NCBI GenBank assembly: GCA_018674305.1
Contig: JABHAL010000007.1
Location: 70,976-125,157 of the forward strand
Source: Candidatus Falkowbacteria bacterium
GTDB lineage: Bacteria > Patescibacteriota > Patescibacteriia > UBA11705 > JABHMO01
DNA: 54,182 bases
Reading direction: 5' to 3'
The notes below the pieces were generated by a model. That model saw nothing but the letters and a program-made list of their open reading frames with translations, was not told where the DNA came from and did not search any database. This document shows positions 38,454 through 41,224 of the stretch, piece by piece. Made by a program: the position numbers and the translations under genes. Position 1 is the first letter of the stretch. Every line of letters starts with the position of its first letter.

Positions 38454-40517
38454 TTATTTTTTATTTATATTTTCTAATTTAATTGCATCATCAATATAAC
38501 CCATTTCCTCATCACAATGGGGACAATATTCATGCTCACCCTCAATATAACCATGTTGCGGACAAACACTAAAAGTAGGTGTTATTGTGAAATATGGCAA
38601 CTTGAAATTTTCTGCTATTTTCTTGACCAAAGCCTTAGTACTTTCCGCAGACGGCAACCTTTCACCAATAAAACCATGCAAAACTGTACCACCAGTGTAT
38701 CTAGTTTGTAGATCATCCTGCAATTTCAAAGCTTCGAAAATATCATCAGTATAACCAACCGGCAATTGAGTGGAATTAGTATAATATGGCTCTGCTCCTT
38801 GACTTCCAACTGCTTCTTCATTGGCAACAACAATTTCTGGGAATTTGACCTTGTCTAATCGAGCAAATCGATAAGCTGTACCTTCTGCTGGGGTAGCCTC
38901 CAAGTTAAACAATTCGTTAGAGTCATTTTGATAATCCATCATTCTTTCTCGCATGAAATCTAAAACTTGGCGAGCAAATTTATGACCTTCAGGATGAGTA
39001 ATGTCAACTTTCAAAAGATTTAAACAAGACTCATTAACACCATTCAAACCAATGGTATTAAAATGATTTTTCCAATATTGACCAAATCGTTCCTTGATAA
39101 CTGCTAAATAAAATCTTGAATAAGGGTAAAGGCCACCTTCTGTGAATCTCTCCAAGGCTGCCCGTTTAACTTTTAGACTTTTCTTTGCTAAATCCATTAG
39201 GTAAGCCAGTCTTTCAAAATATTGTTCTTTGTTTTCGGAAGTATAACCCAGTCTAGCCATATTTATTGTGACCACCCCAATTGATCCAGTCAAAGGATTA
39301 GCTCCAAACAAGCCACCACCACGCTTACGTAGCTCCCTATTGTCTAAACGTAGGCGACAACACATACTACGAGCATCATCTGGGCTCATGTCACTATTAA
39401 TAAAATTGGAGAAATATGGAATACCGTACTTAGAAGTCATCTCCATAATTTTTTCAATAATTGGAGCATCCCAATCCCAATCTGCAGTCACATTATAAGT
39501 TGGAATTGGCCAACTAAGCACTCTCCCTTTTCTGTCTCCCTCGGTCATAATTTCAATAAATGCTTGATTAAACATGTCCATTTCTTTTTGGAATTCACCA
39601 TAGGTTTCCTTTTGTGGTTCACCACCAATAATAACTGACTCACCAGCTAAACTTGAAGGTGGAAATAGATCAAGGGTGACATTAGTAAATGGGGTTTGAA
39701 AACCAACTCGAGTTGGCACATTGATATTATATAAAAATGTCTGAACCTGTTGCTTGACCTGTTTGTAATCCAATCCATCATGACGAATAAATGGTGCCAC
39801 AAGAGTATCTAAACTAGAAACTGCCTGTGCGCCAGCCGCTTCACCCTGCAAAGTATAGAAAAAATTAACTAACTGACTAAGAGCAGTACCAAAATGCTTT
39901 GGTGGCTTACTTTCAACTTTACCCCGAACACCTCCAAAACCTTTGAGTAATAGATCTTTAAAATCCCAACCACAACAATACGGTGCTAAAAGTTGTAAAT
40001 CATGAATATGAAAATCACCGTCAACGTGCGCATTTTTAATTTCAGGAGAATAAACCTTATTTAACCAATAATTCGTACTAATGGTTGAAGCCACATAGTT
40101 ATTCAATCCTTGCAAAGAATAATCCATGTTGCTATTTTCCTTGACTTTCCAATCCAACTGGCCTAAATAACTTTCCATTAATTCGTCTGAATTGATCATT
40201 GATTGAAAGTCTCTCAACTTTGAATGTTGGTCTCGATAGATGATATAAGACCTAGCAACCTTGAGCAATTTACTCTCAATTATCACCTCTTCTACTAAAT
40301 CCTGAATTTCCTCAACTGCTGGTATAGATCTTTCATGAAATTTTTTATTAAGTAACTCCAATACCAAATCACTCAACTCTTCTGCTTTTTCCTTGTCCGG
40401 TTCTCCGACCGCGCGCATTGCATTAAAAATCGCCAAGGAAATTCTTTCCTGGTCAAAATCCACTATCCTATCATCACGTTTTCTTACCTGAATAATTTTA
40501 TTAGCTGTGTAAACCAT
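38454..40517 (-). CDS. nrdD: Anaerobic ribonucleoside-triphosphate reductase, catalytic part
   Basis: This 687-residue protein has an N-terminal ATP cone (VRKRDDRIVDFDQERI, with IPAVEEIQDLVEEV), the class III reductase barrel (HIHDLQLLAPYCCGWDFKDLL, then SMCCRLRLDNRELRKRGGG and NPLTGSIGVVTIN) and a C-terminal zinc site (VCPQHGYIEGEHEYCPHCDEE). The family normally continues with a linker and the glycyl-radical loop RVxGY; here it stops at ENINKK, so the essential Gly is missing from this chain. The missing part is at 38175-38318. It reduces ribonucleoside triphosphates to deoxyribonucleotides without oxygen. ATP-cone regulation is expected. Confidence 0.95.
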   Translation of the reverse strand: MVYTANKIIQVRKRDDRIVDFDQERISLAIFNAMRAVGEPDKEKAEELSDLVLELLNKKFHERSIPAVEEIQDLVEEVIIESKLLKVARSYIIYRDQHSKLRDFQSMINSDELMESYLGQLDWKVKENSNMDYSLQGLNNYVASTISTNYWLNKVYSPEIKNAHVDGDFHIHDLQLLAPYCCGWDFKDLLLKGFGGVRGKVESKPPKHFGTALSQLVNFFYTLQGEAAGAQAVSSLDTLVAPFIRHDGLDYKQVKQQVQTFLYNINVPTRVGFQTPFTNVTLDLFPPSSLAGESVIIGGEPQKETYGEFQKEMDMFNQAFIEIMTEGDRKGRVLSWPIPTYNVTADWDWDAPIIEKIMEMTSKYGIPYFSNFINSDMSPDDARSMCCRLRLDNRELRKRGGGLFGANPLTGSIGVVTINMARLGYTSENKEQYFERLAYLMDLAKKSLKVKRAALERFTEGGLYPYSRFYLAVIKERFGQYWKNHFNTIGLNGVNESCLNLLKVDITHPEGHKFARQVLDFMRERMMDYQNDSNELFNLEATPAEGTAYRFARLDKVKFPEIVVANEEAVGSQGAEPYYTNSTQLPVGYTDDIFEALKLQDDLQTRYTGGTVLHGFIGERLPSAESTKALVKKIAENFKLPYFTITPTFSVCPQHGYIEGEHEYCPHCDEEMGYIDDAIKLENINKK

Positions 40518-40632
40518 ACTTTAGTAAAATTCTAAATACTAATTTCTAAATTCTAAATAAATTCATAATTACCAATACTCAACTTTCCAAAATAAACAAA
40601 ATCAACAGGCACTTCTTGTGCCCTACCTAAAC

Positions 40633-40947
40633 AAAAAAAACCGCTTTCATTTGGTCTCTAATTTTCATGAGCTATTAAGAGTGCAGGATGCAAGCCAAAA
40701 TTGATTTAGCGGTATCAATTTTGTTTTTATTCAAAGCACGAGGAACGAAACGATGCTAAAAGCATCATGAGAGACGAGTAATGCAGAATAAGGGCAAAAT
40801 TGAACCGCCCGGAGGGAAGCCAAAAAATGACTGATTTTTTTGTCGATCCTCCTTGAAGTAACTTACAGTTACTCCTATGTCGTCGCTTCGCAAAATCACC
40901 TCCTTTTTCAGCTTCTAAATCTGATTTTGGTTTGCATCCTTCACTCT
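40633..40947 (-). ncRNA. Long structured leader or MITE-like element upstream of nrdD
   Basis: Ends 40678-40709 and 40915-40947 are complementary over about 32 nt with few mismatches (AGGATGCAA and CCAAAAT blocks and ATTTAG ends). Inside are more hairpins: GATGCT-aaa-AGCATC and AGTAACT-gt-AGTTACT on the minus strand. Between this element and nrdD, the minus strand has ACCGCT (40713-40708) able to pair with AGCGGT (40645-40640), followed by eight T, i.e. a possible terminator competing with the long helix. It could be a cis-regulatory RNA of nrdD or a miniature inverted-repeat element. The rest of the 40518-41294 gap holds a GGCAC-GTGCC hairpin near 40603 and the repeat at 41137; I see no gene. 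Confidence 0.5.
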
Positions 40948-41136
40948 ATCCATTATATACCAAATACAACATCGCTTCAAAGTTTAAAGAAAATTTAAAC
41001 TTTGATGTAAAATTTGGTTTTATTTAAGTGTCGCATAATTTTTAAATCTGACATTTAAAAACTGTGGATAAGTATTAGTAAAACATGTACCTTTCCTCCA
41101 GCGTTCCACCTGCCTGTTGGAATATGTGAACCCCCT

Positions 41137-41224
41137 TGTCATCCTGAGTTTACCGAAGGACGACAAAGACAGCTCTTCTGATTGATTTCATACAATGTCA
41201 TACTTCGGTAAACTCAGCATGACA
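41137..41224. repeat. Inverted TGTCATCCTGAGTTTACCGAAG repeat pair
   Basis: Two 29-bp copies in inverted orientation (41137-41165 and 41196-41224) match at 25 of 29 positions, separated by 30 bases. Together they form one large hairpin. The sequence is like the TCATCCTGAG...GAAGGA repeats seen between genes in many bacteria. Confidence 0.8.

Follow-up and report, generated by a model that had tools for sequence, protein, structure and literature searches.

MITEs and other dispersed palindromic repeats (Correia, NEMIS, ERIC, RUP and the Rickettsia palindromic elements) are 100–350 bp long, carry inverted repeats at their ends and no ORF, and occur in multiple, mostly intergenic copies whose insertion is bounded exactly by the repeat ends. 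Held apart from these are the insertions in rRNA genes of the CPR, which were reported in 48% of 16S and 82% of 23S genes (Tsurumaki et al. 2024; PMC11270868). Those inserts without intron features or an ORF were left uncharacterised in that study, with RNase III-type intervening sequences (IVS) suggested for some, and the terms "palindrom" and "inverted repeat" do not occur in its main text. No paper on MITEs or palindromic repeats in Patescibacteria was found in the open-licence literature, within which the element family of Patescibacteria set out below is previously undescribed.

The window analysed here is a stretch of 54,182 nt from a Candidatus Falkowbacteria genome, in which a structured segment precedes an nrdD-like gene. 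The original prediction had read this segment as an nrdD leader RNA with an attenuator-like terminator and had named, as the alternative, a miniature inverted-repeat element that had landed there; it is the alternative that holds. The segment very probably belongs to a dispersed family of palindromic, non-autonomous mobile elements of Patescibacteria, about 270 bp long, one copy of which inserted between the nrdD promoter and nrdD. What was taken for the switch of a single gene would thus represent a mobile-element family, so far undescribed, in a very large group of uncultured bacteria.

The palindromic segment and the nrdD promoter

The features of the locus are listed below in window coordinates.

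38454..40517, minus strand: nrdD-like ORF of 687 aa (anaerobic ribonucleoside-triphosphate reductase), named from the original prediction and its sequence, with homologues 74–85% identical in nine relatives
40633..40645, minus strand: AGCGGT and T8 stretch of the claimed attenuator, outside the element; its role as a terminator partner is unsupported
40678..40947, minus strand (nrdD-sense): palindromic element of 270 bp, very probably mobile; the second copy aligns over exactly the same interval, and covariance models R1 and R2 match end to end
40678..40709, minus strand: 3' terminal arm of the outer stem (P1), pairing with 40915..40947
40709..40808, minus strand: arm B, the second internal hairpin, with ACCGCT at its base; the conserved partner of CCGC is GCGG within the element
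40816..40915, minus strand: arm A, an internal hairpin with the most conserved, purine-rich motif of the family (GGAGGANYRACAAARAAATC), which was also the genome-scan pattern
40915..40947, minus strand: 5' terminal arm of the outer stem (P1), pairing with 40678..40709
40952..40980, minus strand: predicted sigma-70-like promoter TTGAAG-17-TATAAT just upstream of the element, matching the consensus at 10 of 12 positions

Complementary ends were found to bound a 270-bp segment at 40678–40947, in which 24-nt arms (40678–40701 and 40924–40947) are 92% complementary and lie 222 nt apart; the 33-nt terminal arms are 88% complementary by blastn. The nrdD strand from 40620 to 40960 (341 nt) folded at -104.4 kcal/mol (z = -5.0), and the 270-nt element on the strand opposite nrdD at -94.2 kcal/mol (z = -7.2), with no dinucleotide shuffle equalling either value. 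The predicted 270-bp segment with 32–33-nt complementary ends and a strong structure was therefore confirmed. The span claimed for it, 40633–40947, was right as to the repeated element at 40678–40947, and the 45 nt downstream are not part of it. No ORF of 60 aa or more lies within the 270 bp, and a search against Rfam 15 matched no family, in line with the earlier failure to recognise a riboswitch consensus; weak microRNA matches in this search were discarded as chance.

The element begins 4 nt past the -10 hexamer of the nrdD promoter, and a comparable TATAAT precedes nrdD in relatives without the element. As the promoter-like sequence ends at 40952 on the nrdD strand, transcription would start in the element's first bases or right beside them, in the outer stem. 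Because of this position directly downstream of a sigma-70-type promoter, the 270 bp are probably transcribed as part of the nrdD leader.

Further features were noted around the promoter. A perfect DnaA-box-like TTATCCACA lies upstream of it at 41063–41071 (minus strand), with a GCGACACTTAA-like block about 30 nt later (41025–41039). TTATCCACAG also precedes nrdD in relatives L006–L009 and L014, which suggests a conserved, perhaps replication-linked, regulation of nrdD at the DNA level. A perfect 12-bp hairpin (TCAAAGTTTAAA/TTTAAACTTTGA; 40977–41005, minus strand) overlaps the -35 hexamer and is a possible operator. The same intergenic region contains a separate inverted repeat (TGTCATCCTGAGTTTACCGAAGGACGACA..., 41137–41224), the arms of which are 90% complementary; it matched Rfam AaHKsRNA41 weakly, below the threshold, relative L018 contains a similar sequence (TGTCATCCCGAG...CGAAGGG), and it is probably another dispersed repeat. 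The element-free nrdD leaders of L006–L009 and L014 have a run of T7–T8 some 40–80 nt past TATAAT, sometimes after a hairpin (in L008, ACAACAG...CTGTTGTTTTTTT), and true attenuation of nrdD would be conceivable in these relatives.

Copies at other loci, conserved pairing and variable ends

A second full-length copy is present in the same genome (G000:C4:173537-173805). It shares 76% identity across the 270 bp, the alignment stopping at the inverted-repeat ends, and it sits between convergent genes, a rightward membrane protein gene and a leftward SpoIID-like gene, and is therefore the leader of neither. No third copy was detected in this genome with a covariance model built from the two. All nine order-level relatives have nrdD and lack the element there; the gene pair flanking the second copy was found in nearly all order-level relatives, again without the element.

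DNA similarity alone revealed nothing outside the own genome, whether in 93 relatives, in 381 genomes of the class (with a 29-base pattern allowing 3 mismatches), in genome contigs (with a stricter pattern), in phage and plasmid collections or in viral contigs, so that the covariance model was needed. With this two-sequence model, relatives of full length were recovered from three distant genomes belonging to the class, and a pattern taken from their most conserved stretch found 29 stretches among 84,980 species genomes, nearly all of them Patescibacteria. The model and this one genome scan together yielded about 70 relatives in Patescibacteria, carried by Nealson-, Yanofsky-, Azam-, Harrison-, Buchanan-, Uhr-, Staskawicz- and Liptonbacteria and further bins; an archaeal match (L066) was rejected as chance, there being no element at that place. 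Copy numbers, halved since each copy matches the model on both strands, reached about 20 in JAUYPW01, a genome of about 0.7 Mb, and 16 in a Liptonbacteria genome, followed by 11, 8, 6, 6 and 5, with 1–2 in others and two in the own genome. Of 379 other genomes drawn evenly from the phylum, 5 were positive, a lower bound in view of the stricter filters used.

Most copies are intergenic and lie at unrelated loci, next to genes that look, by eye from their sequence, like rpoB, tuf, ftsW, trxB, nth, yraN and others. They cluster by genome (the five JACZRI01 copies are 86–93% identical), and no near-identical pair of whole copies was seen, the maximum being 96%. Orientation relative to the neighbouring genes is mildly biased (22 ++ against 13 -- among 66 copies); a sense-strand bias that had looked strong in the first 30 loci shrank to these figures in the larger set and was dropped. 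Such a multi-copy, patchy and genome-clustered distribution is the pattern of a mobile element. Short, GC-richer partial relatives of 59–163 nt occur in several copies in G093 (L030, L032–L035), one of them a compact full model match of 163 nt, and 164-nt model matches in G582 resemble these; they are perhaps a shortened subfamily.

Between the two own-genome copies, both partners had changed in 10 pairs and all 81 modelled pairs were intact, a count that is weak by itself because the 81-pair structure was derived from the same two copies. In an alignment of 28 members, which was fitted to the model and hence leans towards it, 91.7% of cells were paired and two-sided changes affected 53 of the 81 pairs; two-sided cells numbered 262, against 24–60 with slid partners and 83 on average in shuffles. 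When 20 members were aligned independently with MAFFT, 85 pairs emerged, of which 56 had a compensated change. The family architecture comprises an outer stem of about 30 bp, two hairpin arms and invariant internal motifs. The opposite strand of most copies also matches the model, at about 40–60% of the score, and the whole element is thus nearly palindromic.

Within a copy the arms (18 nt) match at 87–98% on average, whereas between copies of one genome the match may be only 36–69% (G381, G384, G385 and G390); in G382, G383 and G386 the ends are alike between copies too. Four JAUYPW01 copies have interiors that are 96–98% identical and arms that are 50–83% alike, every arm pair being self-matching, and one pair each with like interiors and unlike, self-matching arms was seen in Staskawicz-, Harrison- and Yanofskybacteria genomes. 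Step-by-step compensation of the arms within an interior divergence of 2–4% is implausible. Either one arm was copied from the other, or the interiors were gene-converted while older arms stayed. Many outer arms, in the last 25 nt of L063, L074, L083 and other copies, contain a GGTTCGAATCC-like motif resembling a tRNA T-arm (of 69 copies, 13 have GTTCGA and 14 have GTTCGTA); it is absent in other subfamilies.

TA stands at the left border of 26 of 66 copies (39%) and at the right border of 28 (42%), against a background of 6.7%. Since left and right are uncorrelated (TA on both borders in 13 copies, 11 expected), this is not proven to be a duplication. No direct repeat of 1–9 nt rose clearly above the shuffled-partner expectation, and none was present at the 23S site described below; a strong target-site duplication or a TA duplication was rejected on the basis of this border analysis. 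A further idea, that one arm is resident target sequence, had been suggested by L076, where a murB-like ORF ends inside an arm. It is unsupported, because an in-frame TAG arises directly when the L076 flanks are joined, and the empty 23S site holds neither arm.

Insertions in rRNA genes

Several copies were located inside rRNA genes. In Uhrbacteria (L027), the element interrupts a 23S gene in which a group I intron and an ORF resembling a LAGLIDADG endonuclease are likewise found; the group I match lies at 915–1165, and no Rfam intron match was obtained within the rRNA-gene elements. Four relatives without the element provide the empty 23S site, the G139 gene minus 270 bp having the same length as theirs, with no duplication. 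In Harrisonbacteria (L143), 294 nt replace 21 model positions of the 16S gene, and in Liptonbacteria (L154) two copies lie at the 3' end of 23S, with recognisable 23S resuming, on inspection, between and after them. All three are stem-forming inserts other than group I or II introns, as in IVS, although the family is not confined to rRNA genes, most copies being intergenic.

The palindromic family supplies an identity for part of the uncharacterised, ORF-less rRNA inserts of the CPR (PMC11270868), linking these to dispersed palindromic repeats. By analogy with the classical IVS of 23S, insertion into an rRNA gene could be tolerated if RNase III cut the long stem out of the transcript. Elements at the ends of metagenome contigs and inside 16S genes may also disturb binning and primers.

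Movement, alternative readings and comparison with known systems

Mobility is supported by the presence of multiple copies, their patchy occurrence at unrelated loci, the exact presence and absence at the 23S site, a fold kept by paired changes, the lack of a long target duplication and the TA-rich borders. Movement would involve DNA folded into a hairpin, probably single-stranded or a cruciform, which an enzyme supplied in trans would recognise by its shape and conserved internal motifs. Its ends may be kept or made complementary in each copy by the copying of one end from the other during movement or repair; alternatively, gene conversion might homogenise interiors and not ends. Self-matching ends specific to each copy are unusual, and would imply either templated-end transposition or a strong structural constraint together with gene conversion. 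The full account, in which a family recognised by its fold has its ends rewritten as a matched pair in each copy, spreads to intergenic sites and to 16S and 23S genes and so explains part of the rRNA insertions of Patescibacteria, is offered tentatively.

Movement of a BIME/REP-type repeat by a resident RAYT/Y1 (HUH) transposase would suit a palindromic element without target duplication, given that Y1 enzymes recognise folded DNA, and three Y1_Tnp matches were obtained in the own genome. However, among 15 carrier genomes with incomplete assemblies, in which Y1_Tnp was the sole transposase family searched, seven were positive and eight negative, the latter including the multi-copy G383, G384, G385 and G390. 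The terminal arms, unlike usual transposon ends, are also not conserved between copies, and this explanation appears unlikely.

Co-option of the mobile element at nrdD to tune expression, through cleavage of the 5' UTR by RNase III, for instance, would draw on the start of the element 4 nt after the -10 hexamer, which would place the beginning of the transcript in the outer stem; a long RNA stem would be a good RNase III substrate. Yet the element is not conserved at nrdD in any other genome examined, and this copy is unremarkable save for a chance-level 6-mer match, which leaves co-option quite improbable. Since nothing singles out the copy at nrdD, it is most likely a passive passenger in the leader, a local side effect on the 5' UTR being possible as a matter of conjecture.

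A family of multi-copy structured non-coding RNA genes, each RNA functional and spread by duplication, would likewise show strong covariation, conserved internal motifs and, as in many such families, an outer stem that varies with compensation. If selection acted on one RNA strand, however, G.U should outnumber A.C, and where folds of both strands support a stem, G.T and A.C numbered 31 and 33, and in the outermost 16 bp of 65 copies 23 and 29 (tRNA acceptor stems, a small and weak control, gave 8 and 2). Neither strand is thus favoured, as expected if folded DNA matters, and this would indirectly favour folding at the DNA level over one RNA strand. Recent copies accumulate uncompensated, pair-breaking changes, as would be the case for a fold required during movement but not for persistence at a site. 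With no sigma-70 promoter match upstream of the second own-genome copy, rRNA-gene insertions in both orientations and a patchy distribution, an RNA gene family is very unlikely.

The predicted ACCGCT...AGCGGT and eight T are indeed present on the nrdD strand (40713–40708, 40645–40640 and 40640–40633). They offer a helix of only 6 bp with a 62-nt loop, and at least one such 6-mer match arose in 65% of shuffles (1298/2000). This terminator helix can be imposed only at a cost of 22 kcal/mol and has a pairing probability of about 3e-15; in the predicted transcript fold, ACCGC pairs with the conserved GCGG(T) of arm B. Of 69 copies, the one at nrdD is alone in being followed by GCGG and a run of T. 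The proposed mutual exclusion of terminator and long helix does not stand, and the attenuator idea for the nrdD leader fails. A cis-acting leader RNA built on that exclusion, as riboswitch or attenuator, could invoke the promoter directly upstream, the strong fold with covariation and the co-directional downstream genes (35 against 22 in 66 copies), but is scarcely credible with copies dispersed at unrelated loci in the own and many other genomes, also within rRNA genes, none before nrdD in the nine order-level relatives, no G.T excess on the transcribed strand and no Rfam match. Such dispersed copies were what the original prediction had itself named as its refutation; the structure it described is real, with many compensatory changes in relatives, and is probably transcribed, and it is the leader role that falls.

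As a mobile element, the family can be set beside several known systems. With BIME/REP-RAYT repeats and IS200/IS605 derivatives it shares a palindromic form, recognition as folded DNA (here proposed) and the lack of target duplication; it is much longer, has no constant end motif, and Y1 is missing in about half of the carriers. Integron attC sites and retron a1-a2 repeats resemble it solely in how they work, through sequence-variable but always self-complementary arms recognised by fold; length and architecture are different, and no integrase, cassette array or reverse transcriptase was noticed beside copies in an unsystematic look. Like rRNA IVS and the ORF-less inserts of PMC11270868, it forms stems within 16S and 23S genes of Patescibacteria that are likely RNase III substrates, but it is also found at many loci outside rRNA genes. 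The likeness to MITEs and Correia-type repeats extends to short length, lack of an ORF, terminal inverted repeats, dispersed copies and an insertion bounded exactly by the repeat ends at the 23S site. It differs from them in ends that vary between copies yet match within a copy, in a two-arm interior kept by covariation and in the absence of a fixed-length target-site duplication, and no sequence relation is known or was found. The element is thus a MITE-like palindromic element without the classical target duplication and constant ends of MITEs, and an IVS-like one whose range extends beyond rRNA genes.
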